A stretch of DNA of 64,000 bases from Sarcomyxa edulis (taxonomy: Eukaryota > Basidiomycota > Agaricomycetes > Agaricales > Mycenaceae): positions 496,001 through 560,000 of the forward strand of contig QUOL01000002.1 of the NCBI GenBank assembly GCA_009761415.1, given 5' to 3'. Under the pieces are notes generated by a model. The model was not told where the DNA came from. It saw only the letters and a list, made by a program, of their open reading frames with translations, and did not search any database. Below are positions 33,176-57,263 of the stretch, one piece after another (position 1 is the stretch's first letter; the number at the start of each line of letters is the position of its first letter). A program made the translations under genes and the position numbers.

Positions 33176-34923
33176 TGTGATGAGGACTGCGGCGCTAGGA
33201 GTAGATGTGCTAGACTCCTAACTATAGTTTGCCTCTAGGGGGTAAGGTGACGTTTTCTCGGAGGGGATTTTACGTAGCGAGAAATCCTAATGCCCAGTGA
33301 CTTGTGTTTGGATAATGTGTTCGTAAAACGGTGGTGAGGTGGGTATGAGATGATGAGGTGTAAGGTAAGCTTCGGACTTGTAGGATCGTTCTCGGTAGGC
33401 CGTTTAGAGGCTTCGGACAGCTATTGGTTCGTTCTTGGAAAACCTACGAAGGCCTCGGACAGCTTTCGGAGAGCTGATCGATGCTTCGGACGGCTTATAA
33501 AACGTCTTCGGAGAGCTATCGAGGGCTTCGGACAGCTATAAGTTCGATCTTGGAGAACCTACGAGGGCCTCGGACAGCTTTTGGTGAGCTGACCGATGCT
33601 TTGTATAGCTATAAAACGTCTTCGGAGAGCTATCGAAGGTTTCGGACAGCTCTGAACTGATTTCGGAGAGCTTCGAGGGTTTCGGACAGCTCTGGACTGA
33701 TTTCGGAGAGCTTCCTTTGTTCCGGGAGTGGTACTGCCGACTGAATCAAGTCCTTTTTCTCTTGTTTTGACCGACTCCTGTAATCGTTCCTTGTCTCGGT
33801 TTCAGAAGTATGAGAAAGAGATAGAATTCCTATAGAGAGTAACTGGGTAGTTGGTCGATTCGGGTATGTTCCTCTGGTTCTCGTCCACACTGGTTCTATC
33901 TACCGTTCTCCATGTCCTATCCTACTTTATATATGAATTCCTTCCCTGTCCTTGCCTAATTCTTCACCCCGAGTGCCATCCCAAGGTCCCCGAGATCTCC
34001 AATGATGAAACAGATCCGGTATTGGTTTTGATGTGTCCGAACCTCGCTCAGTGTGAAAGGTTAGGGCCTGAGGTGTTCTCTGAAAGCGTTGCAAGGTGAA
34101 TTTGTGAAGGGATGAAACATGTCCGAGTGAGCAGGATGATGGGGAGCTTCCGATAGATTTTTCCAAGATGCGACGGCCAAAGTTGTCCGAGAAGAGTGAA
34201 TTTGATGTGGGTTGCTAGGCGGAGACCTGTAGTGTCTTTGTTAGCGGGCGATACCTCGCTTACAAGTGCTGTGTCATGTGATAAACACAGAGGGAAGAAT
34301 ATTCCGTAGCACCACTTGGTCAGGGTGGACGGAGGTCTTAACGAGGCGTCCAGATGCATGGAAAGGTGTGAATTGAGATCACAATGTAAAGGGAATATGT
34401 CCGATTTGATAGGAAGAACAGCTCAGGGCAGCAAGCATCACGTTGGCGGTATGTCGACTGGTGGCAATGTTTTGTCGGTGAAGTATCTCTCGATGAGGTC
34501 TTCTAGAGGTGAAAGGGAACCTGCTGAAACGATTTGGGATCTGTCCGAAGGATCTAGGGGGCTGCGGAGAGGTGATCGAGTACATTGGGCCTTCGGTCAG
34601 GTGAAACGACGATAGGGAATTGGGTTCTGGCGGTAGATTTCCTTCGGAGAAGTTGTTCGTGTGTGATTTCAAGTATTCCGAAACGTTCTGAGACGTGACC
34701 GAAGGCGGGTTAGCGTTTGGTGAGTGGATGAAGAGGCCGCTTTCGGGGAGAAACCGTCAAGTAGCGGGTACTTGGTGTCTTTCAGTGTCCGGTCATTCGA
34801 AAAGTAAGTCGTTTGTGGTGATGCCACCAGTATCTCTGTAGTTAGCTATGTCTGAGGAGTCGCATAAGAGTAGGTTGTTGTATAGTTGTCGATTCCTTGG
34901 CTGGGGATGCTGGCATCCTCACA
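33176..34923 (-). repeat. 3' LTR (left) of the giant retrotransposon
   Basis: 1748 bp, starting TGTGATGAGG and ending CATCCTCACA in plus-strand terms. It matches 55516-57263 except T at 33230 against C at 55570, the only difference I saw. It contains internal tandem repeats built on CTTCGGACAGCT and TTCGGAGAGCT. The open frames inside are identical in both LTRs and do not look coding. Confidence 0.93.
33411..33716. repeat. Internal tandem repeats of the LTR (115-bp and 40-b periods)
   Basis: A unit starting CTTCGGACAGCTAT recurs at 33411 and 33526 (115-bp period). A second set, TTTCGGACAGCTCTGRACTG, recurs at 33640 and 33680 (40-bp period). The same blocks are found in the other LTR at +22,340. 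They may be regulatory repeats; no function is visible. Confidence 0.7.
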
Positions 34924-34932
34924 CTTCCTCCT
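34924..34932 (-). other. Polypurine tract of the giant retrotransposon
   Basis: AGGAGGAAG on the minus strand directly abutting the 3' LTR, the expected plus-strand DNA priming site. Confidence 0.7.
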
Positions 34933-35032
34933 AACTTTTAAATATCGACCGTCCCCGGTCGATCATCCGGAGGGCAAACACAACAGCGTGTCCGTGACCG
35001 AAACAGGGCAAGGACGACCGGCCAAGGACCTA

Positions 35033-35038
35033 TAAATT
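35033..35038 (+). promoter_or_regulatory. TATA box of accessory gene I
   Basis: TATAAA 45 bp upstream of the ATG at 35083, oriented antisense to the retrotransposon. Confidence 0.6.
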
Positions 35039-35082
35039 CCAAGGTCAAGACAGCCAGAGCTTTCCTGAAAGCAACAAGCCAA

Positions 35083-36021
35083 ATGGATCCCATAGCAAAA
35101 GAACTCTTCTTTACGCGCTGCCTCGATCTAGACGGGATAGATGGCGATATTACGATGGCAACTTTCCTCGGATACCTGCGTAACAATATCCGTCCCATGG
35201 TTCACCTAGTCGTCAGCTGCATTTTTCAAGATGCTGTAGCAGACGTTCTCCTTCCGGAGTTCTCGGGTCACGGTGTATACACGCTGAGAAGGCACGTTAA
35301 AATCTTGTGCCAGCACATGGTGAGTGCGTGTGTGCCTTTCAGGGGGTCCGTGCTAATTGCGAAGGTTAAGGTATTCATGCTCAGACTTAGATGGGTACTG
35401 AAGGGGAGGTGCATGGACGATACCACGGAGCCGTTTCCCAAGGAAGCAGTGACCGCCGTTTACCAGGTGCAGCGGTGCGTCCACGTCGTAGGGTTTTCCG
35501 GGGATCAGGACGAGTACGAGGCACATAAGATCGACGTTATCTTGTACTTCATAGAAGAATATGCCCGCCGATCGACATTCGGCGTCGCTTTCGATTACAT
35601 CGAGGCGGACCCGCGTGGTCGGTTCCATGTACATGCCGTGTTGAAGAAGCATCCATACAGCGGTCCCAGGGTACATCGAGATGGTACGATTAGTACGGAC
35701 AGGGGCAACGGCCTCGAAGGAGAAGAGAATCCGGCTAACAACGAAGACGAAGGCATATCCGTCATAAGTATTGCAACGGACGACGAGGACGAAGAAATGG
35801 AGGTGGCCGAGATAGAAAGGGCCTTGTCCGGTAAGAATTCTGACACTTTAGCGGTGCGGCAACGAGCTGATCAGAGAGGTACAGTCCAGCCACTCGCGAG
35901 CTTGGCAACACACGGGGCATTTCGCCTGCTTTTGGAGACGTTATCCGAAGAGGAGAGGAACGGTTTGATTGGCGGGGCAGCGATTATCGAACAAGGACTA
36001 AACAATTTGTCGGGGGCATGA
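35083..36021 (+). CDS. Accessory gene I of the antisense cluster, unknown function
   Basis: Exons 35083-35319 and 35371-36021 (295 aa; the 51-nt intron GTGAGT…TTAAG is in frame, so an unspliced 312-aa form is also possible). Exon 1 contains MATFLGYLRNNIRPMVHLVV, the core shared in pattern with neighbouring genes (aromatic/Leu-Leu-Arg, then RP-hydrophobic). Exon 2 has FGVAFDYIEADPRGRFHVHA, similar in pattern to GTALDFDGFES in gene V, an acidic run (DDEDEEMEVAEIE), and the tail FRLLLETLSEEERNGLIGG. No signal peptide or membrane segment is evident. It lies just inside the 3' LTR. No known family was recognised. Confidence 0.65.
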   Translation: MDPIAKELFFTRCLDLDGIDGDITMATFLGYLRNNIRPMVHLVVSCIFQDAVADVLLPEFSGHGVYTLRRHVKILCQHMVSACVPFRGSVLIAKVKVFMLRLRWVLKGRCMDDTTEPFPKEAVTAVYQVQRCVHVVGFSGDQDEYEAHKIDVILYFIEEYARRSTFGVAFDYIEADPRGRFHVHAVLKKHPYSGPRVHRDGTISTDRGNGLEGEENPANNEDEGISVISIATDDEDEEMEVAEIERALSGKNSDTLAVRQRADQRGTVQPLASLATHGAFRLLLETLSEEERNGLIGGAAIIEQGLNNLSGA

Positions 36022-36081
36022 GGCGGCGAGAAGGGGGAAGGGTTCGGAGAGGTGATCGAGGGCATGCAGTTGTCATGTACA

Positions 36082-36087
36082 TATAAA
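36082..36087 (+). promoter_or_regulatory. TATA box of accessory gene II
   Basis: TATAAA 30 bp before the first in-frame ATG (36117) and 51 bp before ATG 36138, which argues for the later start. Confidence 0.55.
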
Positions 36088-36116
36088 CGACGAGTCCTTT
36101 CGTGTTGAAAATCGAA

Positions 36117-36702
36117 ATGCCTGCCCGCAGTATGCAAATGGCTCGCGAGAGACTCTGCGACTACTTCATGACGTTGAACGTCCCGTCCTTCATTCGACCC
36201 GTCTTCTATCCGCACGAGGGCTTCGATGGATTCTTCCGCAAACGCCTTCGTATGATGTTCGGTGTCATCCAGGCAACGCTTCCTCATAGGGTGACAGCAT
36301 TTCCCGATGACACCGACAGTGTTATCGGGCAGTATACGCTGTCGAGGCGGCTTATGCGGTTTTTCGTTGAGAACGTTGTACGGGCTTCCACCGTTTTTCA
36401 GCGGGGGAACGCAGAGATACTAAAAGAATCCTTCTGCGCAGGAACTCATCATTGCATACCGTCAGCGGGCCAGGACCGATGCCAACGCCGCCGAATTTAA
36501 AATTCCTTCAGAGGTATCCCGTATGATGGAGTTCAGTCTTATCGTTTATGACAAGGTCGGATTTCATGGGGACTGGGCCCTCAGCAGCGTCGGTCAGAGG
36601 AGGGAAATGCTTCAGTCACTAAAAGATGAGGCCGACGTTAACGCTTCATTGACTGGCGGGGCAAAGGAGTATCCCGAATTTGAGGACCTGGTGTTCTGGT
36701 AA
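36117..36702 (+). CDS. Accessory gene II of the antisense cluster, unknown function
   Basis: Exon 1 runs from 36117 (or 36138) to 36377 and exon 2 is 36442-36702 (173 or 166 aa). The intron is GTACGG…TGCGCAG. Exon 1 contains HEGFDGFFRKRLRMMFGVIQ, the same pattern as gene III's EGFTNFLRFRLRPMVEIVE. It ends FFVENV, matching the position of intron 1 in the other genes. Exon 2 starts ELIIAYRQRARTDANAAEF and ends EDLVFW. Probably an all-helical small protein; no family was recognised. Confidence 0.6.
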
Positions 36703-37714
36703 GCAGGCGCCGTCGGTCTCGTTCTTTGGGCCCCTCGGAGGGATACTAATAGTCGGAAATTCGCATTTCAGAACGCACGCGTAGCGGGGAAGCTTTCCTG
36801 GATGTGACCGAGGGGGTTTTTGTCGTCGTTGGTACTTTAATGGGTAAACACTCCTTTCGCGTGCTGTGTTCAGAGATCTTGTAGTTTATGGAATGCACTG
36901 TCAGTCCGGAGGGCACAACGGTCTCGGGCAGCCTCCCAACCTCCTTTACAAAGGGTATCGATGTCCGATGATTCCACCCGCTGTGCGCAGACATTTGAAT
37001 CGCGGACAGTTCGTAACTCCGTCAGCGGCTCTTGATAAGAGGAAAGTTCAGAGGGGAGGCGAGTGAGATGAGAACGGAGAGAGGTTATCAATGCTTTCAG
37101 AGCTTTTCTCCTTTACAATTTCGCTATATCGCTCAGTGGCCTGGTCATCATTTCGTTCTTCCGTAGCCTCGCCGTTATACGATGTCAGGATGATCTTCTC
37201 GTCCCGTTCAATAACTCGGCCGGCGCAAGATGCTGTTCTCTTCTTCAAGATGATGCAGTTGCATTTCTACAGCGCTCAAAGCCGACAGCCGTCAAGCGCC
37301 AGTGGCTTCATGAAGTCATGGCCGTTTAGATCGAGGTGGCTTGCGTCCTGATCGTCGTTGTTCTTACGGCGCAGTTGAGACTGTGCGGGTTAATACGTGT
37401 GCGGGTGATGTGACCGCGATCTTGCGAAATCTTTGCGAAGGAACGAGACACGGCGAAGTGTATCAGGTGAGGCAAGGACCTGCGACAATAGTCGAAAAGA
37501 TGGTCCCAGGGTAGCGGCGCGACGTGGCGGCCAGCTCGTGTTCTTTTGCATGTGGCATTCGCAATCGTTCCGTGAGCATCTATACCGAAGAACAGGCGTC
37601 TTTACTGCTTCTGATAAGGCACGGTCCGGAAAATCCAACGGTTAACAGTGGCTGCACGGAGTTCGTTCGGACACCTCTTATCGGTCCGAGACGTCAGTCC
37701 TAAGTCCGATGAGG
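36703..37714. other. Gap in the accessory cluster
   Basis: About 1 kb with no supported gene. Open frames of 60-86 codons on both strands have no shared core motif or TATA-ATG arrangement. It could be a decayed cluster member. Confidence 0.35.
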
Positions 37715-37720
37715 TATAAA
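37715..37720 (+). promoter_or_regulatory. TATA box of accessory gene III
   Basis: TATAAA 44 bp upstream of the ATG at 37764. Confidence 0.6.
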
Positions 37721-37763
37721 GAACGCCAGCTGGCGCAGGGTAGCCATCAATATTCCGGCCAAA

Positions 37764-38359
37764 ATGTCGCATGTCGTTAGTTCATCGTTTACTCAAGCTC
37801 TCCGAGACGAGTTTTTGTCGTATGCCCATCCTCCTGAAGTTCTTGCCGGGGATTTCGCTCCTACCGAGGGCTTTACAAACTTCCTTCGATTCCGCCTCCG
37901 CCCTATGGTGGAGATCGTCGAGCGGGGGTACGCGGCTTATCTTATAACGAGTTCCCCGAGAGACACCGTTGAACCAATCATATGGAGCGAGACGAAAGGC
38001 TGGTTCCGCATCGTGTTGGATCATTTGGTAGGCGTCCGTGGTTCACTCGGTGAGCTTCGGAGTGTTAACCTTACGTCTTCTAGGATGCCATTCTACGGTT
38101 TAGGGATAGGGTGACGGCAATTGGCCGAGGAGACGAGGCCGTGGTTCCGTCAGAAGCGTTGCGCCTCGCAAGCATGGTGCAGCTATTCCTTATCCATCAC
38201 GGAGTTGAGCTCGGGTACGATGAAGATGTACTTGTGAAGAGGAAGGATTTAACGAAGGAGTTCCTTTGGTCTATCGTCCCTGTAATGCACCGAGAGGCAG
38301 TTGCCGTGGAATTTCCGGAGTTCGTGATACGGTTGGCAGGGGAGGGTACGGGCAAGTAG
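37764..38359 (+). CDS. Accessory gene III of the antisense cluster, unknown function
   Basis: Exons 37764-38027 and 38084-38359 (179 aa) are joined by a GTAGGC…TTCTAG intron. Exon 1 has the core EGFTNFLRFRLRPMVEIVER and ends FRIVLDHL. Exon 2 starts DAILRFRDRVTAIGRGDEA, continues VQLFLIHHGVELGYDEDVLV and ends FVIRLAGEGTGK. Length, single intron position and the exon-1 core match genes I, II and IV, suggesting an old tandem duplication. No known domain was recognised. Confidence 0.65.
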
Positions 38360-38397
38360 AAGGGGTGTCCGATAGCTGAATAGCGCGATATTTTTAG

Positions 38398-38403
38398 TAT
38401 AAA
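38398..38403 (+). promoter_or_regulatory. TATA box of accessory gene IV
   Basis: TATAAA 42 bp upstream of the ATG at 38445 and only 39 bp after the gene III stop, so the genes are tightly packed. Confidence 0.6.
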
Positions 38404-38444
38404 GAGGGTGAATCAATTCCTCCGTACAGGTCACCACAGAGCCC

Positions 38445-39163
38445 ATGAAAATTATGGAACCCCTACACCAAGTCCTTTTGAACACTCTTGCCCAAGAGGC
38501 AGCAACGTTCGATATCCTTGATCGTGACGGAATGATTCACTATCTCAGGTGCCTCCTGCGCCCCGCTGTCGGCCTCGTTGCTGATTTTATATTCCGTGAA
38601 CTCGGGCCCGATGGCTACTTTGTAGCTTTAACTGGTCGCGAGAGGGTTCCCTACTACTGCAATGCGCAAATCGTGTTGCTCCTCGCGGTACGTTGGTCTA
38701 AACTCGACCCTTAGCGATCTTATCGTTTAACGGGTTTTCACTTGATCGGTAACAGGTCCATTTCCACAGCCAGTGGCAGGACCTGAACAAGCAGGACAGA
38801 CGTTTATACATGGTTCCGCCCGAGATGAATAGAACGATCAGCCATTTGCGCTTGATTTGTCGGGCTGTCCGAATTCAGCCAGCAAGCCCCATTCATTGGG
38901 AGGTCGAAGCCGTCCGAGCTCTTACCGAGCTTAGCATACGCGCCCTGGCAGCTTACGCGTCGGCTGAAGATGCCTTCGATTGGCCGGAGTACGAGAAGCC
39001 CGGGGTTGCCGCGTTGGAAAGCGCGATGACCAGATCGATCCGTCTCGATCTCCTCGAAAGGGTCGTACCTAAGCGCGTTGTCGTGGTCGAGGGGGAGTCC
39101 GAAGGTGCAGGATATAGCGACGCAGAGGACTGGCCAGGGTCGGAGGAGGAAACGACGGAGTAA
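38445..39163 (+). CDS. Accessory gene IV of the antisense cluster, unknown function
   Basis: Exons 38445-38687 and 38756-39163 (216 aa), with intron GTACGT…TAACAG. Exon 1 carries RDGMIHYLRCLLRPAVGLVA, again the cluster core, and ends AQIVLLLA. Exon 2 begins VHFHSQWQDLNKQDRRLY, has a Leu/Ala-rich helix (EAVRALTELSIRALAAYA), and ends in an acidic tail (DAEDWPGSEEETTE). An in-frame second Met at 38454 is an alternative start. Function unknown. Confidence 0.65.
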
Positions 39164-39205
39164 AATAACGCTCCCAGAATCATATGCCACTTATTGTAGT
39201 CTGCA

Positions 39206-39211
39206 TATAAA
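39206..39211 (+). promoter_or_regulatory. TATA box of accessory gene V
   Basis: TATAAA 55 bp upstream of the ATG at 39266 and 43 bp after the gene IV stop. Confidence 0.6.
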
Positions 39212-39265
39212 AAACCTCCCCGAATCGTTTGCTCCGTTCCTTAAGTCAGTAAAGTCCCATCAACG

Positions 39266-40201
39266 ATGTCCTTTATTCTCCGTTTGTCTGCAAATCGCTT
39301 TCCCGAGAATCCCCAGGATCCCGACCTCGAAAATGAGAGGTCTCCGACCACCATCTGGTCTCGGTCAATTCGTAGCCTCCTAGGCATCGTTCATCTCTCC
39401 GTAAATGGGAGGTGTCCGACGGACGTTCCTCTCGAGGAAAGGCTCTGGGTCAGGACCCTCCTCACCCGGATCGTCAATTACGTAGTAAGCGGCTCGCTTG
39501 TTTTTCCTTCATCGTTCCTCTTTCAACATCGTCCGTCCAGCATCAAGCTATGAAGCTCCGAGCCTCCGAGGCCATTAAATCAGGTTCTTGGGATACCATT
39601 CCAATTCCCGCTCAAGCCACCACTACCGTCGCCATGCTCGAGTTCTTTCTGAAGAACTTTGGTTTCGAGGGGGACTACGTTGCGGTCAACGTTAGGAACG
39701 TTGGGTATCTTTTATCGTCGGTGAAGAGCGAGATGGTTGCCCAGGCGCGTTTTACTTATTTCTTGGTTCTCATCCTTCGTTGATTTATTTCTTTTCGTCC
39801 TTTTCTAGGTCGGATACGTCGGAACCGCCCTGGATTTCGATGGATTCGAGTCGTCCGATGCGTACAACGGGTACGGCGTGCTTCCCGAAATGAAGCAGCA
39901 GCAAGTCAATGACCTGCTCAGATTGCGGGCGGCTTTCGTTCCCAATCCTATTCTTCCTGCTCCTCGATATCCTCTTGTCCCCTTCGTCGCGAGGTTTCCC
40001 GTGAAAGAGGGCTTTGAAGAGGTCCGTCTTCATGGAGACGTTCCCGATCCTCGTCTCGGAGGCCTCCACCAAGTTCATTTCGGCCCTGGAGCTTTCAGAC
40101 AGGTAGATCCTCGGAACGCTGCGACGCGTGGGAGAGGTCGCGGAGGGGCAAGGGCTAATCGTCGAGGAGCTGGAGCGGTGCCTGATACTACCATTCTGTA
40201 G
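39266..40201 (+). CDS. Accessory gene V of the antisense cluster, unknown function
   Basis: Exons 39266-39484, 39541-39735 and 39809-40201 (268 aa), with phases in agreement. Exon 1 has a weaker core (TTIWSRSIRSLLGIVHLS) and ends TLLTRIVNYV at the conserved intron position. Exon 3 starts VGYVGTALDFDGFESSDAY, resembling gene I's FGVAFDYIEADP. It ends with an Arg/Gly-rich tail (TRGRGRGGARANRRGAGA), which could bind nucleic acid. No known family was recognised. Confidence 0.6.
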
Positions 40202-40715: not shown

Positions 40716-40749
<34 letters not shown>

Positions 40750-40911: not shown

Positions 40912-42080
40912 ATGTCGTCCACCACTGGTGCTTTTTCAGGGAAGTTTAATAGGTCGATCACGGGTTTGCCATATTCCTTCATCGTCCATAGTTGGTTTGA
41001 TAACAAGCTTTTTGTTCAGATATTCTGGATGGCACCGTCGCACAGCCTCTCTTGTCCGCCCTTTCTGGTGATACTGATTTGCGAACCCTCTCCGCTGCTC
41101 AGCGAAGCGCCCTTATATCGACTAGACGAATTCCCGGTTCGCTTTTCGGCGTTTACAGGCAATTAATGCCTGATCGTATCACGAAGTCGTCGAAAGAATT
41201 GAGGTCCATGATGTTCACCCTTTTATCGATCGGTTATCCTAGGGCTCCGCCAGCCTATTTCCACAATTTTCCAGAATTGAATTCGTCCGTTATAAAGTTC
41301 ATCAATAACTTTCCCTATGTTCCCGACTTTCTTCTCGAGGCCATTTCGTATAATCTTCCGCGCACCGTGGCCGTTGCTAATTTCGATCCTGAGTTTTCGA
41401 GCGACGAGTTGGCCGATTCTTGTAAGTACTCTTCTCGCGCCCGTAAGCCGGTCATTTAAAGTTGCCCGTGTCCGAATGGTCGTAGCTGCTAGCGATGTCG
41501 AGCCCCAAAGTGACTCTCCGGGGAGGGAACAGACCAGCCAACCTACCCGTCGGTTGAGAAAAGTTACAGGCTTCCCCGTACCCAAAATCACCGTCCTCCC
41601 AGCAGCTGAAGCTTATCGAACACTTTCTTCAGCGAAACAGGATAGAGCATCCAGGAAGAACCGCCTCTTTTTTATCCGAGCCAGAGTCAGTCTTTCCCCA
41701 TATCTCAGCCTATGTTTTCAAGTCATTGACCCCATCTTTTACCCTCTTCAAGGACTACCGATGTTCCGAATGTATTCGTAATGACGTTTCTTGCCCCGGT
41801 TTCAGGTCTCAAGCATGCGACTTCTGTGAAGGGAAGCAGTCCGCATGCAATCTCGTAGGTGGAGAGGATAACCTCAGTGAGCCTTCTCCCTGTAGTGACG
41901 GACACAACTGCAACCATAGAAATTCTTTCCCCTTTTGTAGGCGAATTAATGGCTCGCGCTACCGGCTGCATCAAGGTCCTAAAAAGGCCCGAAGTCGTTT
42001 CCAGCGAGGCGTCCGGTGAGATTAAGACATCGGCGAACCCGACTGCTAGTTCGTCAGCCCTTCCCCCCCTTCGTAACCAT
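40912..42080 (+). pseudogene. Accessory gene VI, 5' part, with Cys-rich motif
   Basis: Proposed exons 40912-40927, 41020-41421, 41486-41685, 41753-41858 and 41941-42080, continuing at 48608 beyond the TIR insertion (398 aa in total). All phases agree, though the first 16-nt exon is the weakest part. Exon 2 encodes a helical region (RSALISTRRIPGSLFGVYR, FINNFPYVPDFLLEAISY). Exon 4 has a Cys cluster, RCSECIRNDVSCPG then ACDFCEGKQSAC (C-x2-C-x5-C…C-x2-C-x6-C), probably metal-binding. No TATA box was seen. It is tail-to-tail with pol. Confidence 0.55.
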
Positions 42081-42082
42081 TA

Positions 42083-42161
42083 ATGCCAGCTAGTATAGTA
42101 TTACTTTTCCCCACATGTGTGGTAAAAGTGAAGTGTATAAAATGCCACAAAATAGTACTTC
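42083..42161. repeat. Left terminal inverted repeat of the TIR element
   Basis: Inverse of 48530-48607 with very few differences (for example CTAGTATAG against CTAATATAG near the tip). Similarity then decays into AGTA-rich sequence. Confidence 0.8.
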
Positions 42162-42317
42162 ATTTGAAGTATTGCTTTTTTTACTTTATACTTGACTGAA
42201 ACTGAAGTAAAAGGGCTAGTATTACTATACTTTTCAATTACTACCAATCACTTTTAATGAAGTATTACTTGGTTTTTACTACAGTTTTACTTTATAGTAA
42301 AGTAAAACTATCAAAAA

Positions 42318-42389
42318 ACAAGTGTTTTCAAGGAGAATTGAACCAAAGACTTTATATTATATAATCAATTATCTACATCACTTACCACT
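42318..42389 (-). ncRNA. Second tRNA-derived sequence, split by the chromovirus
   Basis: Reading the minus strand from about 47940 to 47923 and then 42384 down to 42318 (chromovirus removed) gives TAGTGTAGTGG (A box) and GGTTCAATTCT (near B box), very like the copy at 48318. It faces outward toward the left end. The CCACT target lies within its A box. Confidence 0.45.
42385..42389. repeat. Target-site duplication CCACT, left copy of chromovirus
   Basis: CCACT directly before the TGTAAG terminus, repeated at 47923-47927. Confidence 0.9.
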
Positions 42390-42540
42390 TGTAAGCCTAG
42401 CTTACCAATGTTACACATGTTTGGCTACGACCTTGATAGTTACGACTCTCGCATGTATCAGTTCTTTACCTTTTAATACACGCTCTGTTTCATTTTATCT
42501 TCGTTCCTCCCTCAGTGAAGACCACCACGGTTGTCTTACA
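42390..42540 (+). repeat. 5' LTR of the chromovirus
   Basis: 151 bp with TGTAAG…CTTACA termini. Differs from 47772-47922 at an ATG/ACG and a GCATG/GCGTG position. Confidence 0.92.
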
Positions 42541-43018
42541 CTTTTTTTTAAAATCGTATTCAGATCGTCTACCGCTGGAAACTTTTTTCACACGATTCGG
42601 CCAAATTTGGACCCGGCGTGTCGATTTTGCTTCCGCGGCATCTTTTAAACACTTCTGCTCCCGTTTCTTTCTCATCTCCTTATCATCCTCTGATCTTACC
42701 ACGATCAACTCCCGACGTCTGTCTTCTGATTGACTTCTGTACCCCTCTGCCCAGTTTCCGAACGTTTTCACACGCATATATCGACCTGTCGTTGCCACAC
42801 TGGCATCTTCCCGATCCCGTTCGTCGAGTTGTTCATCCAACTCATCCTCGACTTCCTCTCGACTTCCTTCCCTGACACCGTCTCCTGAACGTCCTGCACG
42901 ACTCCCCAGCCCTGCTCGAAACTCCCGTCCCCGCCAAGTACCGACTACCTCAGATTCTTCAGGATCTGACTCCGACTCTCATCCCTGTTCCATTTCCTCG
43001 AACGTACCTTGCCAAAGC

Positions 43019-47686: not shown

Positions 47687-47771
47687 ATTTTTTTTATTTT
47701 TATTCTCCCCCTCTTTCCCCCTCCCCGCTTTATTCTAAAAGGTCACTCTAATTTTTTACGGTACGGATGAG

Positions 47772-47922
47772 TGTAAGCCTAGCTTACCAACGTTACACAT
47801 GTTTGGCTACGACCTTGATAGTTACGACTCTCGCGTGTATCAGTTCTTTACCTTTTAATACACGCTCTGTTTCATTTTATCTTCGTTCCTCCCTCAGTGA
47901 AGACCACCACGGTTGTCTTACA
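47772..47922 (+). repeat. 3' LTR of the chromovirus
   Basis: 151-bp partner of 42390-42540, followed by the CCACT duplication. Confidence 0.92.
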
Positions 47923-47927
47923 CCACT
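47923..47927. repeat. Target-site duplication CCACT, right copy of chromovirus
   Basis: Right partner of 42385-42389. Confidence 0.9.
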
Positions 47928-48011
47928 ACACTATAAGTGCTTAAACAAGTTATGATCATGGTGGATTATATACCACCTCTAAACTAGGATCAAACATATA
48001 ATTAGGACACT

Positions 48012-48051
48012 CCAGGTTAGGGTAAGCAGCAAGCTGCTTACCCTAACCTGG
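48012..48051. repeat. Perfect 19-bp hairpin with telomere-like stem
   Basis: 48012-48030 is the exact inverse of 48033-48051, separated by AA. The stem contains GGTTAGGGT. It lies in the TIR element beside the TTAGGG-like array. Confidence 0.9.
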
Positions 48052-48078
48052 ACTAAGTATGTGTTAATGACTAGGATG

Positions 48079-48227
48079 TTAGCAGTTAGGGTTAGAGTTA
48101 GGGTTAGGTTAGGGTTATGGTTAGAATAGGATCATAAATAAGAAAAAAACCAGAATTAATAAGGTTAGGAGGTTAGGGTTAGGGGTTAGGTGGTTAGGGT
48201 TAGGTTAGTTAGGGTTAGGGTTGTTGC
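48079..48227. repeat. Interstitial telomere-like TTAGGG repeats
   Basis: Two clusters of TTAGGG and variants (TTAGGGTTAG, GGTTAGGTTAGGG, GGTTAGGAGG) around 48087-48130 and 48160-48227, interrupted by AT-rich sequence. TTAGGG is the usual basidiomycete telomere repeat. Here it is inside a transposable element, not at a chromosome end, since genes continue on both sides. Confidence 0.85.
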
Positions 48228-48317
48228 GTAGAGATTAAGATATATTTAAGTAATTTAATTGATGATAAACCAATTTGATGCTAGGTATATATTCCCTTAT
48301 AATTAATACATTTTTAA

Positions 48318-48409
48318 GCTTCTATAGTATAGTGGTAATGAATAGTATTGTTAGTTTAGTTTATGTAATTGTAAGTCACATGTTCAGGTTCAATTCCTAC
48401 CTAGTGCAG
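48318..48409 (+). ncRNA. tRNA-derived sequence with Pol III A and B boxes
   Basis: TAGTATAGTGG (48325-48335) fits the A box and GGTTCAATTCC (48387-48397) fits the B box, 51 bp apart; a T run follows at 48411. The acceptor and T stems pair poorly, so it is not a working tRNA. It faces outward toward the right end of the TIR element. Confidence 0.5.
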
Positions 48410-48529
48410 TTCTTTTTAATTTCCTCAAGTAATACTACAGTATTACTTCAATTGAAGTTGACCACAAGCTAAGTAAAACATAATAGTAATACTTTTGTTT
48501 TACTAAACTGAAAAGTAATACTACAGTTG

Positions 48530-48607
48530 AAGTACTATTTTGTGGCATTTTATACACTTCACTTTTACCACACATGTGGGGAAAAGTAATACTATATTAG
48601 CTGGCAT
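48530..48607. repeat. Right terminal inverted repeat of the TIR element
   Basis: Inverse partner of 42083-42161. Confidence 0.8.
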
Positions 48608-48940
48608 GACTCTCGTAACGCGGCTTCTGGCTCCCTCTCGCATATCGACCCCAGACGTCCAGTCATTCGCCTGTCTCCGGAGCACCATCCTCGGCCACGA
48701 TCTGATTCCAGCATCGCACGCAGCGAGAAAATGGATGCCATCGTTCGCAATTCTAGGTCCCGTCTTCTCGACGGTGCCAGTGATTCGTCCGCTTTTGGCG
48801 TGCTAAGCCCCGTTGTCGTTGATCATATGACCCCAATTATTGATCAAGTAATGAAGGAAATTGGTTTGGCGTATCGCGTCTTGATCGAGGATGCTATCGA
48901 TGAGGCGGACGAGGAGGAGATTGCTATGGCGTTCTTGTAG
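48608..48940 (+). pseudogene. Accessory gene VI, 3' part
   Basis: Continuation of the exon cut at 42080: with 42081-48607 removed, codons CAT and GAC become adjacent and the frame runs 111 codons to TAG at 48938-48940. It contains SEKMDAIVRNSRSRLLDG and an acidic helix ending DEADEEEIAMAFL. It sits 192 bp from the pol stop, which is on the opposite strand. Confidence 0.55.
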
Positions 48941-49132: not shown

Positions 49133-52100
49133 CTACGTCCTCTTTTGTCCCGTTTGTTCTGGCGTTAACGTTGTCCCTTCGTGTTCCGGTTTCCTGGGGA
49201 ACTGCCAAAGTCTCGTCCTGTATGTTCCTGGTAGCGAGTCGTCCCCTGGTTCCACCAAACTGTATTCCTCTGGTGTATCGTCGTCCGCCATCTCGTTCAG
49301 CTGTTTCGTAGTTTTACCTACTAAGGTTGTGACTTGGATAGTGATTTCGTTCCTCCTGAAGTAGGGTACCAGTCGGTGCGCCGCAAATCGATGTTCCGCG
49401 ATCGCACCATTGACTTCGGGGAGTATATAACTTCCCGATTTCGTTTGCCGGACAACAACCATCGGACCTATATATCGGGGCTTCATCTTGTTATTCAGTT
49501 CCTTCTCGATCCTTGTGTTTCTGATGAGTACGAGCCTCCCCGGGGCGAACTTGAAATCGTAAATCTGCCCTTCATACTTCTTCAGGAATTGCTCTGCCGA
49601 CTCGAGCCTAGCCTTGTACTTGTCTCTCTGTATTTTCGATAGCTCCTTTTCCCGTCTTTGAAGCTTCATCGCTCTTCGCGTTATGAGTTCTCCGAAGTCC
49701 ATTTCTTCGTCGATAAACGGGTGCATGTATGTTGACTGTTCCAAATCAAATGGATGTATCGCCTGGACACCGTGCGCTATGTAATATGGCGAATACCCCG
49801 TGGATTTCTGAATTGTAATCCGCTCGGCCCAAAATATGGCATGCGCTGCCTTCGGCCAAATTGATTGATTCCCATCGCACGACTTAATGAGCGATTCTCG
49901 GACATCGTAGTGCTTTCGCTCGATGACCCCCTGCGCTTGCGAATTATAACCCGAAATTCGTATATGATTGATTCCATATTGCTTTTTGAGGTGATCGACC
50001 GCTTTGACCCAAGGTTTCCCATTATCCGTGACGATTTCCATTATACTTCCCCATCTGCATAGGACATCTTCGAAGATGAAACTGGCCAGATTAACAGCGC
50101 TTTCATTTTTCAGCATTCTCCACTCCGGATATGAGCTGAGCGAACATCGTCCATGAGCAATCACATGAAAGCCATCGACTGTAGGAAGGTGCATTGTGTC
50201 CATGTAGATTTTCCCAAATAGCGGAAACGGAACCGCCACGGTCGGAGGAATGTGGATCTTCGAACTGTTCCTGAGTTGACATTGGTGACACGTCCTGACG
50301 AACCAGGACACATCTCTGCTCATGCTTGGCCACCAAAACCTATCCATCAGCCTGACCTTCGTTGTCCACGTTGCTTTATGCCCGAATTTATCATGAAGTT
50401 CGGACATTATTTGAATCCTCTTTTCCGGTGGGAGTACGACTTTGTGTTTCAGCTGCCTGTCCTTTCTCCATAATTGCCCATTTAGGACAAAGAAGTGAGC
50501 TGCTTTCTTCATAAACGCTTTGAATTGTTTATCGGACAATCCTTCGGGCCTGTTCGCCGTTTCAAGGTACTCAGCTATTCGTACGAGTTCTTCGTCTTGT
50601 TTGATGGCGAGAGTCGACTGAGGAATAACCACGTTCGGGACAACTTCGCCAATAAGGACTGCCGATACTTCTCTTCTTCGGCCAGGTAGCGAGGCGAAAT
50701 ATGCCTTTGCTATGGCTTCGGGGAAATCGCGCTCATTTACCATTAATCGATGAGGCGGCACCGTATCCAATATTGACCGAGCTCTGTTTTCGTTCCAGTT
50801 TAGCATTTCGACCGAAAATCCACATGCCCTATCGATCCATTCTTCGACGTCGTCTTCCTCTTCCGAATCTTCCGGGGCCTTTCGTCGTCTAGATAGACCA
50901 TCCGCCGGCCCCATCGCCGTTCCTGGAATGTGCTCTAGTTTGAACGTGAACAGCTGGATAGCTGCTATCCATCTATTGATAGCCGCATTAGGTTGTATAT
51001 CCGGATTATTTAGCATCCCTTTGATATATTTCGCATCTGTTCGGACCGTCAGGTTTTTAACCCCGACTATGTATAACCTATAAGCCCTGAGGGCCCTGAA
51101 TAAGCCATAGAGTTCGATTTTTGCCTGGGAGTATCCTTGCTCGCGTTCATTCCATGTAATAGAGCCAAATCTGGATGGATATTCGATCCCGTCTTGTCCG
51201 AGTTGCAGCAGGACACAGCCCATCGCCCTCCAAGACGAATCGACAACTAGATAGACCATCCTTTCCGAGTGGTAGTCTATTGCTCGGAGTGCCGGAGAGG
51301 TTATTAAGAGATGTTTGAGCGTTTCCATGGCTTTTATCTGTGGCAATCCGAAGACGAAATCGACATCCTTTCGTGTAAGCATGACCAGCGGCCGCGCATG
51401 TAGCGAAAAGTTCTTTATGAAGATTCTCATTAGTCCGAGCGTTCCTAGGAAGGCTCGGACGTCTGTTAAATCTTCACAGGGTGGCCAATCTTTGATTTTC
51501 TGGACCTTTGTTTCATCCGGGACCCTGCCATGCACGTTACAGCGGTGGCCAACAATGACGACCGATGGTACTGCCAGAAATGATTTCTTGGCATTGAACG
51601 TTCCTCCTGCATGCCTTATTCGGTGAACGATTCGATTGACGTTCACCAGGTGTTCCCACACGAATCTCCTTATCCCTGGGTTGTCCGGTATTGTTTCGTA
51701 TTCTCCAGTTTCCGATTGGTAGTACGTTGCTGGTCCCTTCACCGGACAATCGTCCACGAACGGTTGTGTGATGCTCGGAATCTCATCTTGCAGAATGAAC
51801 GAAACATCTCCCTGTTGTATCTGGACCGAATTAGTGTATCCTTGTGGAAGCCTTGTTAACCTGAAAGTGCCCATCGGCGTTTGGAACGTCGTAAGATCCC
51901 TTGAAGGTATAGCGAGGATTCTGTGGTCGAATCCTACAAACAGATCGAACATTCCATATATCGTGGCCCCACCGAAGGACTCCGCATAGACTTCGACGAT
52001 CGGCGGGCAGCCCGCGTCCTTTATCGTTACAGCATTAAGAGGCTGTAAGTCATGCACAATCCTTAACGATACCCCATCCTTCTTCGGCACGCAGAACCAC

Positions 52101-52875
52101 CTCGACCTGTACGATGAATTCGATGGTTCATATACTCCTGCCGCTATCTTGTCTTTGACTGCCTGTACCACCTTATCTCGTATCCCCGGTGGTATCGGAA
52201 TGTTTTTATAGCTCCAAGGGGTGTGTTCGAGAACTGGGAGCTTAATCGGTTCGAAGTAGTCCGATCTGAAGTGGCCCTTTTCCATCTCGTTCCAGGCGAA
52301 CGCCATTTCGTGCGTTTTGATTATATGATGGACTAGTTTTTCTTCCTCAGGCCATAAAAAGCCGTCCGAGTTGATATTCTGTTCCATCATCCTTTCCATC
52401 GTATATCTCGTGCCTGGTTCGAATCGCGGTGGACGTGTTGGTAGCTCAGGCAGCGTTTCCAGCGGGTCCGACGGGAACTTTCGTACTATCCTGTATTCCT
52501 CTGGCAGCGTAGCAGCGACCGGTTGGGTCCTTTTATCTACCGGTTTGTACTTCTTCCCCTTCTTTCTCTTCTGCGGTATTTTGTCGTCCGAAAGCGTCAG
52601 GCATTGCGTATCTTCATTTAGTATACAATTTTCACATGAGGGCTGGTTGAGGGTTTGCTCCGCTCCCTCCGTTTCCGTGTTTTCGTAGCGCGTTCCGGTA
52701 AATATGTTACATGCTGGGTGGCCCAGTCTGGAAAGGGAAAATCGTGTCGTCGAGTTCGTTGTTACATTGTGATCGTTAATTTCAGCAGTCTGGGTATCGT
52801 CGGTCACCGTAAAATACTTGACCGATATGCTTTTTCGAAGGTTCGTCTCGACTACTGACGGCCTCCGACCGGGCG
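49133..52875 (-). CDS. Pol polyprotein of the giant retrotransposon (RT, RNase H, integrase)
   Basis: Open frame in the -1 phase relative to gag, from just after the slippery site (52876) to 49133. The first GTG-type start would be 52807, but no good ATG begins it, which supports frameshift expression. Reverse transcriptase has CVPKKDGVSLRIVHDLQPLN and the catalytic FVDD box (Phe where Tyr is usual). RNase H has VVDSSWRAMG and VRTDAKYIKG. Integrase has an H2C2 finger (HDKFGHKAT…CHQCQ) and the D-D-E core (MDTMHLP, VTDNGKPW, QGVIERKHYD). There is no chromodomain at the C-terminus. All catalytic residues appear intact. The protein makes the cDNA and inserts it. Confidence 0.92.
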
Positions 52876-55302
52876 AAAACCCACCGATGTCGGTGAAGAT
52901 CGTTTTGGTTTGACGAACGTTGGAACTGTGACAACCTTCCCTGTATTAGGGCAGGTCAAGGTCAGGTCCTGGTTTCCGGTCGTGTAGTCCTTGGTAACGC
53001 ATCCCGTTAGTTTAAAGAATGGTCGTCCCATTAGTATTTCGAACGGAGCGTTTTCCACTACATGGACCTTCAGATAGATTTCGAGTCCTCCGATATTAAA
53101 TTTAAGGTCCTCGATAAGCCCCGTAGTCGTGTCATGCTGGCTATTGGCCGATTCCATAGTGATTTTATGGTCCGGTCTCAAGTGTATTCCGAGTTTCTGC
53201 CAAAGTCCCTTGTTCATGGCAATTATTTCCGACCCTCCGTCCAACACACATTCGACCTTTTCATCCTCGATAGTCGGGTAGATTACTCTGAGTTTTTCAA
53301 TGGATGAGCCCGTGAGGAGAATTTCTTCATCCGGTCCGTTCGGATTTTCGTACCGAAGGATATAACTGGAGTCCGGTTCGTCGATGTTGTCCGGATTAAT
53401 CGACTCGAGTCGTCCAACCGTCGGAATCCTTTTAGTAGACACCAGTTCCTTGTACTGTTTTCTGACATCTAGACTAAGCGAAAGTAATTCTCTTTGTGAG
53501 ATGGATATCTGAGTATCAAGTGATCGGTTCAGGACCCTTTTTGCCAACTCCGGATCTTCTATCGGCGTTGAGAATTTATACTGCGGACCAGTTTGTGCCT
53601 GCTTCCTTCCTTCGGTCGCATCCTTTTCGAATTCTACCGTTTTCCTTTTGGGAGGAACTTGGCTGACCGGATCGTCAGGGAGCGGCTGAGGTCGTCCGGG
53701 GGGTCCTTTCCTTCGCATAGCAGGTACAGGTTTCTCCGTAGGTTCCAGCGGTTTGCCATTACGGGTTTTTCTTGCTTGTTCGTTTGCTAGGACTTCTCCA
53801 ATATCTTCTTCTTCTTCCTCGATCTCCTCGATCCTTGATTCTTTGTAGTACGAACTAGAAGTTTCTCCGGACGATGCGAACCACATGGTAGAAGCATGGG
53901 GAGGTGCATCGCGTACAAAGTTGACGCCATTTATAATCGACCCCGGATACATTTCATGGTACCTGTTGATTCTGGCAGCCAAGTTGATTCCTTCTATATT
54001 TGAAGGAACCCATGCTCCGTTCGGAAGTACGACTTTTCCGTTCATGTTTCGCATGCATTTCCCATCTCTGATAAATTCGGCGACCTTCGGACAATCTCGA
54101 ATGAAGTGAGACGTGTCCGAACAGAACGCACAAACCGAGCCGTTTCCTGGACCGTTTTGAATTCTTCGGACAGGGGATCGATCGAGGAATGGGTTAGGTG
54201 CCCTTCCCTGCGCTGGGACATAGCCTTGGTAACGGTTATTGTATGACATGGCCTGGTTTGCCCCCATGTTTGATAACGTGGCTGCCAACGTACTCATGCT
54301 TGCTGCCAACTCCCTATTAAGCACCTTTATTTCCCTCGACATTTCGTCTATTTCTTGTTTAACTACCGGATCCATTCCAGTCGTCTGTGTTCCGCTGTAA
54401 AGAACCTGTCCTCCTAGGATATGTTGGCCTTCCTTGTAGAGGTCATCGATCATATATGGTTCGTCGAGTTCCTGGTCGGGCTTCTTGATTTTTAGTCGGG
54501 CCATTAGCTGGACCAGGAACTGCGGGTGGAGTCCTTTTACGTAGAGGCGATTCTCTTCTTTCGCAGAGATCTTGTTTTGGTCTTTGAGATGATGCGATAT
54601 CCTGGTAAAAGAACGATGGTATTTTCCAAAGTCCGATTTGGTGTTAATCGGTATTGCTGCTTCTTTTGCAAGCAAGACCTCTAGATCATTGAGCGTATAT
54701 TTCTTTTTCTCGTCTGATCCGGGATAAAGCTTCCGGACTTCGGATTTGAAGGCGTCCCAGTCTTTTGCGGTAACCACCTTCCAAAGCGATTCGTCTTCCG
54801 CCCCAAGGTAGTACCTAGCCATGTCGATTTTCTCTTTATCCGACGCTTTCCCAGCCGCCGTGCATACTTGGTCTATGTCTTCGAAATACCTTGTAACAGA
54901 TTCGTCGAGACCATCAAATTTTGGAGCATCCCTGCTGGTCCGGGTGGGCGGCGGTCTTGACGTCATTGTCGGAAGGTTTTTCTGTATTCGGGGTTGGGAT
55001 ATTCGAGGGGTTATGCGATTCGATGGTAACGGTATCTGAGACGGAGGAGGCGGCTGAGTCTGCGTTTGGTCTTGTGTTGAAGTTTGGCGGGAAGGGATGG
55101 ATAGGATTCGAGACTCCAATTGGAGGTGAGATAAGGGTTCAGCTGGTAAACTGTTCGACGGTTCGTTTCCCTGGGCTAGGCTAACCGAGTCTTCCGAGGG
55201 CGTAAGGGAGGCCTCTGTTGAAATAGTGTCCGATTCAACGGAACGTGGGAGCAATTCTTCGTCTGAGGTATCTATGTTGGAAGGAGGTGTTTGGGATGGC
55301 AA
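52852..55302 (-). CDS. Gag with zinc knuckle and protease-like domain of the giant retrotransposon
   Basis: 816 aa. The N-terminus is Ser/Pro/Gln-rich. The capsid-like domain starts near APKFDGLDESVTRYFEDID. The zinc knuckle CAFCSDTSHFIRDCP has the canonical C-x2-C-x4-H-x4-C spacing. The region after it is acidic. A retropepsin-like domain near the C-terminus has VECVLDGGSEIIAMNK and a FEILMGRPFFKL flap/partner motif; the active triplet is D-G-G where D-S/T-G is usual. It forms the particle and probably processes the polyprotein. The ATG at 55302 lies 214 nt inside the 5' LTR. Confidence 0.9.
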   Translation of the reverse strand: MPSQTPPSNIDTSDEELLPRSVESDTISTEASLTPSEDSVSLAQGNEPSNSLPAEPLSHLQLESRILSIPSRQTSTQDQTQTQPPPPSQIPLPSNRITPRISQPRIQKNLPTMTSRPPPTRTSRDAPKFDGLDESVTRYFEDIDQVCTAAGKASDKEKIDMARYYLGAEDESLWKVVTAKDWDAFKSEVRKLYPGSDEKKKYTLNDLEVLLAKEAAIPINTKSDFGKYHRSFTRISHHLKDQNKISAKEENRLYVKGLHPQFLVQLMARLKIKKPDQELDEPYMIDDLYKEGQHILGGQVLYSGTQTTGMDPVVKQEIDEMSREIKVLNRELAASMSTLAATLSNMGANQAMSYNNRYQGYVPAQGRAPNPFLDRSPVRRIQNGPGNGSVCAFCSDTSHFIRDCPKVAEFIRDGKCMRNMNGKVVLPNGAWVPSNIEGINLAARINRYHEMYPGSIINGVNFVRDAPPHASTMWFASSGETSSSYYKESRIEEIEEEEEDIGEVLANEQARKTRNGKPLEPTEKPVPAMRRKGPPGRPQPLPDDPVSQVPPKRKTVEFEKDATEGRKQAQTGPQYKFSTPIEDPELAKRVLNRSLDTQISISQRELLSLSLDVRKQYKELVSTKRIPTVGRLESINPDNIDEPDSSYILRYENPNGPDEEILLTGSSIEKLRVIYPTIEDEKVECVLDGGSEIIAMNKGLWQKLGIHLRPDHKITMESANSQHDTTTGLIEDLKFNIGGLEIYLKVHVVENAPFEILMGRPFFKLTGCVTKDYTTGNQDLTLTCPNTGKVVTVPTFVKPKRSSPTSVGFRPVGGRQ
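52876..52882 (-). promoter_or_regulatory. -1 ribosomal frameshift slippery heptamer G GGT TTT
   Basis: On the minus strand the gag codons GTG GGT TTT contain X XXY YYZ = G GGT TTT in the correct register, 8 codons before the gag stop (52854-52852). The -1 frame is open from upstream of this point into pol. A downstream pseudoknot was not assessed. Confidence 0.6.
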
Positions 55303-55515
55303 CCAATCAAGATTTATTGATGGTACGTCCGATAGCGGTGACGATTCGGGCGGAGTCGTTTCTTCGGAAAGGTCGCTTTGTGGATATTCGACGGATAAAT
55401 GTGGTATACGGGAAGTTTGAGAGAAGGCTTGAAGCTCTGCTTCAGCTAAACGAGTTTGGGCTCAGGTAACTCGTCTAGTAGACACCTTTTAAATCCCCTC
55501 GCGGTGGGCTCCAGT
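55303..55515 (-). other. 5' leader of the giant retrotransposon
   Basis: Untranslated leader between the PBS and the gag ATG, which would carry packaging signals. Nothing further is recognised. Confidence 0.5.
55496..55513 (-). other. Primer binding site
   Basis: Two nt inside the 5' LTR the minus strand reads TGGAGCCCACCGCGAGGG, beginning with TGG as expected for pairing to a tRNA 3' CCA. The tRNA species was not identified. Confidence 0.65.
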
Positions 55516-57263
55516 TGTGATGAGGACTGCGGCGCTAGGAGTAGATGTGCTAGACTCCTAACTATAGTTCGCCTCTAGGGGGTAAGGTGACGTTTTCTCG
55601 GAGGGGATTTTACGTAGCGAGAAATCCTAATGCCCAGTGACTTGTGTTTGGATAATGTGTTCGTAAAACGGTGGTGAGGTGGGTATGAGATGATGAGGTG
55701 TAAGGTAAGCTTCGGACTTGTAGGATCGTTCTCGGTAGGCCGTTTAGAGGCTTCGGACAGCTATTGGTTCGTTCTTGGAAAACCTACGAAGGCCTCGGAC
55801 AGCTTTCGGAGAGCTGATCGATGCTTCGGACGGCTTATAAAACGTCTTCGGAGAGCTATCGAGGGCTTCGGACAGCTATAAGTTCGATCTTGGAGAACCT
55901 ACGAGGGCCTCGGACAGCTTTTGGTGAGCTGACCGATGCTTTGTATAGCTATAAAACGTCTTCGGAGAGCTATCGAAGGTTTCGGACAGCTCTGAACTGA
56001 TTTCGGAGAGCTTCGAGGGTTTCGGACAGCTCTGGACTGATTTCGGAGAGCTTCCTTTGTTCCGGGAGTGGTACTGCCGACTGAATCAAGTCCTTTTTCT
56101 CTTGTTTTGACCGACTCCTGTAATCGTTCCTTGTCTCGGTTTCAGAAGTATGAGAAAGAGATAGAATTCCTATAGAGAGTAACTGGGTAGTTGGTCGATT
56201 CGGGTATGTTCCTCTGGTTCTCGTCCACACTGGTTCTATCTACCGTTCTCCATGTCCTATCCTACTTTATATATGAATTCCTTCCCTGTCCTTGCCTAAT
56301 TCTTCACCCCGAGTGCCATCCCAAGGTCCCCGAGATCTCCAATGATGAAACAGATCCGGTATTGGTTTTGATGTGTCCGAACCTCGCTCAGTGTGAAAGG
56401 TTAGGGCCTGAGGTGTTCTCTGAAAGCGTTGCAAGGTGAATTTGTGAAGGGATGAAACATGTCCGAGTGAGCAGGATGATGGGGAGCTTCCGATAGATTT
56501 TTCCAAGATGCGACGGCCAAAGTTGTCCGAGAAGAGTGAATTTGATGTGGGTTGCTAGGCGGAGACCTGTAGTGTCTTTGTTAGCGGGCGATACCTCGCT
56601 TACAAGTGCTGTGTCATGTGATAAACACAGAGGGAAGAATATTCCGTAGCACCACTTGGTCAGGGTGGACGGAGGTCTTAACGAGGCGTCCAGATGCATG
56701 GAAAGGTGTGAATTGAGATCACAATGTAAAGGGAATATGTCCGATTTGATAGGAAGAACAGCTCAGGGCAGCAAGCATCACGTTGGCGGTATGTCGACTG
56801 GTGGCAATGTTTTGTCGGTGAAGTATCTCTCGATGAGGTCTTCTAGAGGTGAAAGGGAACCTGCTGAAACGATTTGGGATCTGTCCGAAGGATCTAGGGG
56901 GCTGCGGAGAGGTGATCGAGTACATTGGGCCTTCGGTCAGGTGAAACGACGATAGGGAATTGGGTTCTGGCGGTAGATTTCCTTCGGAGAAGTTGTTCGT
57001 GTGTGATTTCAAGTATTCCGAAACGTTCTGAGACGTGACCGAAGGCGGGTTAGCGTTTGGTGAGTGGATGAAGAGGCCGCTTTCGGGGAGAAACCGTCAA
57101 GTAGCGGGTACTTGGTGTCTTTCAGTGTCCGGTCATTCGAAAAGTAAGTCGTTTGTGGTGATGCCACCAGTATCTCTGTAGTTAGCTATGTCTGAGGAGT
57201 CGCATAAGAGTAGGTTGTTGTATAGTTGTCGATTCCTTGGCTGGGGATGCTGGCATCCTCACA
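55516..57263 (-). repeat. 5' LTR (right) of the giant retrotransposon
   Basis: 1748 bp, identical by eye to 33176-34923 except C at 55570. It contains the promoter for gag-pol in the minus direction. Confidence 0.93.

Follow-up and report, generated by a model that had tools for sequence, protein, structure and literature searches.

The window analysed here is a stretch of 64,000 nucleotides from the basidiomycete Sarcomyxa edulis (contig QUOL01000002.1, positions 496,001 to 560,000). At window positions 33176-57263 it contains a long terminal repeat (LTR) retrotransposon with gag and pol on the minus strand and, between pol and the 3' LTR, a cluster of predicted spliced genes on the plus strand, g1 to g6, here called the cargo. 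The source genome searched for further copies is a 35.6 Mb assembly of 40 contigs, labelled C1-C40, in which the window is C12:496001-560000. The features are as follows.

33176..34923, minus strand: 3' LTR, 1748 bp, one mismatch to the other LTR, ends TG..CA, target duplication GCGC
35083..36021, plus strand: g1, likely in-frame intron of 51 bp at 35319-35369; open in 7 of 9 other copies
36117..36702, plus strand: g2, exons 36117-36377 and 36442-36702; open in 7 of 9 other copies
37764..38359, plus strand: g3, exons 37764-38027 and 38084-38359; open in 9 of 9 other copies
38445..39163, plus strand: g4, exons 38445-38687 and 38756-39163; open in 8 of 9 other copies
39266..40201, plus strand: g5, exons 39266-39484, 39541-39744 and 39809-40201; open in 8 of 9 other copies
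40912..48940, plus strand: g6, Cys-rich motif, approximate exons 40912-40927, 41020-41421, ~41460-41700, 41753-41854, ~41941-42077 and 48614-48940
42083..48607, no strand assigned: nested insertion with 97-bp inverted repeats, foreign to the native element; absent from the C7, C1 and C25 copies
42390..47923, plus strand: Ty3 chromodomain LTR element inside the nested insertion, 152-bp LTRs, ORF (open reading frame) 42734-47686
49133..52945, minus strand: pol (RNase H, integrase), ORF of 1270 amino acids, Pfam matches
52852..55461, minus strand: gag with protease domain, ORF of 869 amino acids from stop to stop, Pfam gag-asp_proteas match
55516..57263, minus strand: 5' LTR, 1748 bp, partner of the 3' LTR

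The anatomy of the element is, from its sequence, near certain. The gag and pol ORFs are both open and overlap in different frames, with the protease domain in the gag ORF followed in pol by RNase H and the zinc-binding integrase domain H2C2 (Pfam). Inspection by eye gave two features: TGGAGCCCACCGCGAGGGG, which resembles a primer-binding site and is located two bases inside the 5' LTR, and the purine tract AGGAGGAAG, which adjoins the 3' (left) LTR. No tRNA was matched to the former, and a tRNA scan of the window using the bacterial code found none. Pfam did not report RVT_1 for the window pol, a domain that some of the listed pol relatives carry, and the chromodomain (Chromo), present in the nested Ty3 element, was absent from the window pol at E <=0.01. 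We class the element on its sequence features as a Ty3/gypsy (Metaviridae) LTR retrotransposon and not a chromovirus. In a large protein set pol had 545 matches; among the 120 listed, identities were 94, 92 and 62% and then 54% or less, the closest named relative among them being a Candolleomyces protein (P0006, 54%). The LTR holds a tandem duplication with a 115-bp offset, 84% identical (33409-33691), which is also present in the other LTR.

The minus-strand gag-pol and LTRs proposed in an earlier note on this DNA are thus borne out by open ORFs, Pfam domains, the 1748-bp LTR pair and the GCGC duplication, and its plus-strand cluster of at least six spliced genes, located after pol and before the 3' LTR, by models of six genes and by the conserved splice dinucleotides of g2-g5. 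Its 24-kb element is right as to coordinates and not as to native length, which is 17.5 kb once the 6.5-kb nested insertion is taken out (17,482-17,502 bp in the uninterrupted long copies C7, C1 and C25). Among the four long copies read, this insertion is present in the window copy only, where it splits g6; g6 is unsplit in C25, C7 and C1. Inside it sits a 5.5-kb Ty3 element with LTRs at 42390-42541 and 47772-47923. By eye, a CCACT duplication flanks the Ty3 element and a short duplication flanks the 97-bp-repeat insertion. The cargo is not part of the nested insertion, because long copies without the insertion still have it.

Genes g1-g5 were modelled exon by exon, and the borders of g6 are approximate. 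The g1 intron is in frame and open, so that g1 at first resembles a single exon. The splice dinucleotides of the five introns of g2-g5 are unchanged in all nine other copies read, with variation at further bases of two 5' sites, and the second g5 intron is GC-AG in 10 of 10 copies. In alignment, g1, g2, g3 and g5 share one column after which a phase-0 intron follows; the g4 intron is six columns off. Profile comparison gave paralogy values of 98% for g2-g3, 87% for g1-g3, 53% for g1-g5, 52% for g2-g5 and 37% for g1-g2, against at most 0.5% in 20 shuffled sets. From these features g1, g2, g3 and g5 look like tandemly duplicated paralogs sharing an intron, and g4 is perhaps a further member of the set. 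Intergenic gaps are 95 bp (g1-g2), 85 bp (g3-g4) and 102 bp (g4-g5), and within 36022-40911 there is no AATAAA-like signal in the g1-g5 spacers and one after g5; polycistronic transcription of the cargo would be possible. The 1-kb g2-g3 spacer holds a stretch (36929-37466) that is 75-92% related to a locus with long minus-strand ORFs at C6:547866.

Distribution of the cargo among copies

The earlier note had proposed looking for cargo at the same antisense place in further copies, and took its absence from them as the mark of a one-off capture of host DNA. The genome gave the opposite picture, in the family of the window element (family 1) and in a second, related family (family 2). At the family-1 loci identified by pol-end DNA (n=17; 27 of 27 hits scored), g5 was on the expected antisense side in 15. 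One exception, on C17, is ended by the contig end. The other, C16:93654, at first looks like a pol locus without cargo, but its sequence is that of a family-1 copy reduced by deletion: 1 kb of the pol end and the g6 end are joined to a partial LTR. A protein search also placed family-1 pol at 17 sites (37 of 175 candidates scored). Fourteen of these keep the pol 3' end and its flank, all with cargo; the remainder are the C17 place at the contig end and two fragments on C16.

Searches with the cargo itself gave a concordant distribution. A 1.5-kb cargo probe matched 27 places, among them the window, over its full or nearly full length at 96-100%, and others in part. With all 82 candidates scored and an E limit of 0.001, g5 matched 31 family-1 and 9 family-2 places and nothing else in the genome, and genome matches to g1 were likewise confined to the two families. 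By coordinates, the 31 family-1 places comprise 14 with adjacent pol, one with pol-end DNA only (C34:22388), one at a contig end (C11:853) and 15 with no pol hit on the expected side, none of which sits at a contig end (C8 judged by position). In the large protein set g1 had a single match (P0001, 78% over 80% of g1), as did g5 (P0122, 63% over 48% of g5, with the best 7994 candidates scored).

Nine further copies were read from LTR to LTR. Three are long (C7, C1, C25) and contain cargo and gag-pol without the nested insertion; the other six are short, with lengths of 11,674-11,722 bp for those on C12, C3, C6 (two) and C5, and with a further insertion in the one on C2. A short copy consists of an LTR and cargo up to window position 40527, about 2.5 kb of DNA of its own, about 30 bp and then the 5' LTR. 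The 2.5-kb part encodes a homolog of g6, recognisable at the protein level (40% over 112 residues, 47% over 34). Paired TG..CA LTRs with a matching 4-bp target duplication were found in 7 of the 10 copies (not in C25, C12 and C3), and in eight of the ten, four long and four short, 0-2 mismatches separate the two LTRs. These LTRs indicate recent integration of both forms.

Family 2 has a pol with about 79% amino acid identity to that of family 1 (74-75% in DNA) and a cargo of the same order on the same strand, with amino acid identities of 40% for g1, 34-41% for g2, 34% for g3, 32-34% for g4 and 45-50% for g5 (overall range 29-56%). This cargo includes one further member, gX, and has a Cys-rich gene at the place of g6. 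Ten family-2 pol-end hits were found, one of them (C15) ended by the contig end; g5 was on the expected side in all nine that could be assessed, within 12 kb at seven loci and at 18-22 kb at two, where the gap sequence was left unread. The two families have the introns of g2, g4 and g5 at corresponding residues, and family-2 g1 has a stop where the in-frame intron of family-1 g1 lies. A solo LTR of family 2 is present in the window itself at 28574-30497, its two pieces 93.9 and 98.5% identical to a C16 copy, with CCGC on both sides.

Coding constraint and the g6 block

Over the 10 copies read, the ratio of nonsynonymous to synonymous polymorphism (pN/pS) was 0.11 for g1, 0.01 for g2, 0.07 for g3, 0.12 for g4 and 0.10 for g5, or 0.087 overall, and 129 of the 177 variable columns were third codon positions. 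For g1-g5 together it was 0.115 in the long copies alone and 0.067 in the six short copies alone; over four copies, gag gave 0.044 and pol 0.060. Four of five wrong-frame controls gave 1.8-3.3. Outside the window, 39 of 45 copies of g1-g5 are open.

Identity to the window, compared in 250-bp bins, is 93-100% over 34924-40423, falls to 68-87% in C7 and C1 but stays at 86-99% in C25 over bins 40674-48924, and is 89-100% from 49174 onward. The 17 strong pol-end hits all belong to one or other of these two types, 11 at 97-100% and 6 at 83-84%. While the LTR and g1-g5 of the short copies are about 98% identical to the window, synonymous divergence (dS) among the six in the largest g6 exon is 0-1.8, reaching 2.7 in a 43-residue exon. 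The ratio of nonsynonymous to synonymous divergence (dN/dS) among them is 0-0.12 wherever defined, and two g6 exons compared between C7 and C25 gave 0.11 and 0.10. Positive selection on g6 is ruled out by this low dN/dS, the variability being one of synonymous depth and mosaic borders. By these measures g6 forms a block that has sharp borders and diverged long ago. It seems to have been long under constraint in elements without gag-pol, because the alignment of the six short copies extends over nearly all of the 2.5 kb and all six have the same layout without gag-pol; alternatively, there was possibly a gag-pol partner with the same g6 type, now lost or unread. Template switching after minus-strand DNA had copied the LTR and g1-g5 would place a common 3' part on different backbones. 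LTR-g1-g5 is common to several backbones, probably by this route, with the g6 types remaining distinct.

Role of the antisense genes and comparison with known elements

We consider it likely that the window element belongs to a recently active Ty3/gypsy lineage whose normal content includes an antisense module of six spliced genes. The cargo seems to be a durable, functional component of the element, unlike stray host DNA, because it is largely intact in the copies, including those without gag-pol. This interpretation is drawn from sequence: frames, splice signals, purifying selection, conservation in two families, co-inheritance with pol, the lack of matches elsewhere in the genome, and near-identical LTRs in long and short copies.

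A mechanism can be proposed in which the introns of the antisense cargo would go unrecognised in the genomic RNA and so survive reverse transcription; the retention of intron positions between families at 29-56% amino acid identity fits such shielding. Transcription of the cargo may start at the inner edge of the 3' LTR or at internal promoters, and short copies would be packaged and integrated by gag-pol from long ones. Its proteins might act in the nucleus for the element, in regulation or in protection from silencing, g6 being perhaps the most element-specific part. The element would then be a natural case of introns retained in a retroelement over long evolution, with antisense orientation as a testable reason. 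The strong purifying selection on cargo in elements without gag-pol is not easily explained by help to transposition in trans alone. With most gene copies intact, insertions recent and about 30 copies available, the purpose of accessory genes in LTR elements becomes testable.

A bolder version, which we put forward tentatively and hold to be doubtful, sees the core of the replicating unit in the antisense genes instead of in gag-pol. The element would be a cargo-driven retro-satellite with a cis-acting or self-specific trait (anti-silencing, or a drive or addiction pair), selected in copies that borrow gag-pol, and the g6 types would be specificity groups exchanged as cassettes on an LTR-g1-g5 backbone.

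Several observations weigh against the reading of the cargo as a lasting, functional module. Six of the 45 gene copies outside the window are broken (g1, g2 and g5 in C25, g1 in C3, g2 and g4 in C12), and g6 is split in the window copy. The fifth control, an antisense frame in which third positions coincide, also gave a low pN/pS (0.132), so this ratio alone does not fix the coding strand, and its assignment rests on ORFs, splice sites and homology. The paralogy is uneven, with g4 at best at 14%, g3-g5 at 1.6% and g4-g5 at 0.25% in the profile comparison. For two more distant pol families (51-53% amino acid identity over part of pol), 6.5 and 7.5 kb of sequence past pol yielded no cargo, the best tblastn hit having E 0.014, and the cargo may not be ancestral to the wider group. 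As to role, no Pfam family matches g1-g5 at E up to 1; PDB searches with two of them, g1 and g5, gave no match; and a structure model of g1 had a mean pLDDT (predicted local distance difference test) of 36, too poor for a fold search. The Cys spacing of g6, C-x2-C-x6-C-x7-C-x2-C-x6-C, resembles the fungal Zn2Cys6 cluster consensus; its match to PF00172 (Zn_clus), at E 0.017 and 15.7 bits, is below the 21-bit Pfam cut-off, and g6 is not assigned to the fungal Zn2Cys6 transcription factors. Expression, promoters and splicing of the cargo are predictions, and the role of its proteins is a guess.

Among other explanations, the cargo could consist of long-retained passenger genes that benefit the host, the LTR element being their vehicle and selection acting on the fungus and not on the element. 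The cargo of large DNA transposons can serve the host, and purifying selection that continues in copies without gag-pol would be odd if the proteins only aided transposition in trans. However, g5 has 31 family-1 places, there is no match in the genome outside the two element families, and presence of the cargo follows pol lineages and not a fixed locus; we regard this explanation as unlikely. That the cargo derives from another mobile element or a virus, inserted long ago in the ancestor of both families and domesticated, is quite unlikely in our judgement. The lack of a Pfam family for g1-g5 would suit it, as would the g2-g3 spacer remnant with its repeat-like relative at C6:547866, but the cargo showed neither a transposase nor terminal repeats, and the few searches made gave no viral or cellular source. 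This explanation concerns origin and is compatible with a lasting module of the element.

Antisense transcription can regulate LTR elements, according to the account in PMC7264820, and the antisense stretch might accordingly act as RNA, through double-stranded RNA control of copy number, its ORFs being incidental. A pN/pS of 0.09, mostly intact frames, conserved splice sites and protein conservation where DNA similarity is scant make this highly improbable, and a non-coding antisense stretch is ruled out by the frames, splice sites and pN/pS. That host genes were captured just once, in one insertion, has next to no chance of being right. Nothing speaks for it beyond the first view of one copy, and it is ruled out by the locus counts in both families (cargo at 15 of 17 family-1 and 9 of 9 assessable family-2 loci, and in 15 further cargo-only copies).

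The new features are a set of several spliced genes and a partner element without gag-pol; the single antisense extra ORF is already known in plants and Botrytis. Among the matches listed in the open-access literature there was no fungal LTR element with several spliced antisense genes, and no spliced multi-gene set with a gag-pol-less partner. The novelty lies, as in the earlier note, in the set of intron-containing genes; antisense cargo as such is not new, brtn in Boty and the plant elements being known. Additional ORFs in antisense are described from the plant Ty3 elements Grande, RIRE2, Retand and PvRetro13, where they occupy the interval from pol to the 3' LTR (PMC7264820, PMC11963269). 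As in the window element, the antisense coding region is at this same place, occurs lineage-wide, has no assigned function and is accompanied by some non-autonomous members. In those accounts, however, the region between POL and the 3' LTR is 2.9-6.6 kb and its ORF usually has a TRP28 domain, whereas the window element has six spliced genes, several of them paralogous, and cargo-only copies. The word 'intron' occurs 0 times in the main texts of the two papers. TRP28 (PF04195) is absent from g1-g5 (Pfam E up to 1) and from the g6 pieces tried, and by this domain the window element is not Retand/Tat-like.

HBZ has a regulatory role and is, unlike the cargo, a single gene of an infectious animal virus; no homology is claimed. 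It is cited as a retroviral antisense gene, of human T-cell leukaemia virus type 1 (HTLV-1), in PMC11963269. In Boty / BcGypsy1 of Botrytis cinerea, too, an LTR element of a fungus has gained an antisense gene, named brtn (Zhao et al. 2011, via PMC8365987, PMC7264820); one gene is named there, and we liken the two by description, not by sequence or splicing. The bdelloid ORF3 elements (PMC5408684) share an accessory ORF besides gag and pol, and include a pol-poor, non-autonomous member that retains ORF3, of an env-like kind. Their ORF3 types, as described, are envelope, esterase, exonuclease and others, and within-genome variation is reported as mostly neutral, in contrast to the pN/pS of about 0.09 here. 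Giant DNA transposons, too, carry accessory genes (PMC12477816).

Genomic setting of the copies

The neighbours of the window element are an ORF with DUF6830 and one for a Plavaka transposase. In both families many copies are close to contig ends (C7, C8, C11, C17, C25, C9, C15, C16, C23, C5, C34) or in clusters, such as C34:15-48 kb, C6:854-882 kb and C40:1066-1103 kb, possibly reflecting a centromeric or subtelomeric location, or repeats that break the assembly. The short copies at C12:2607800-2620000 and C3:470200-482600 have swapped ends: their flanking 4-mers are exchanged, and the left LTR of one differs from the right LTR of the other at 0 and 1 positions, against 43-44 within each copy. 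This could result from a switch in the assembly or from two chromosomes having exchanged segments reciprocally.

The matching 4-bp duplications have a central CG in 8 of 8 cases (GCGC, GCGT, ACGC, ACGC, CCGT, GCGC, ACGC and, at the solo LTR, CCGC), the frequency of CG in the window being 0.063. The flanking 4-mers of C25, C12 and C3 differ, yet also have a central CG, and the pattern suggests a target choice centred on CpG.

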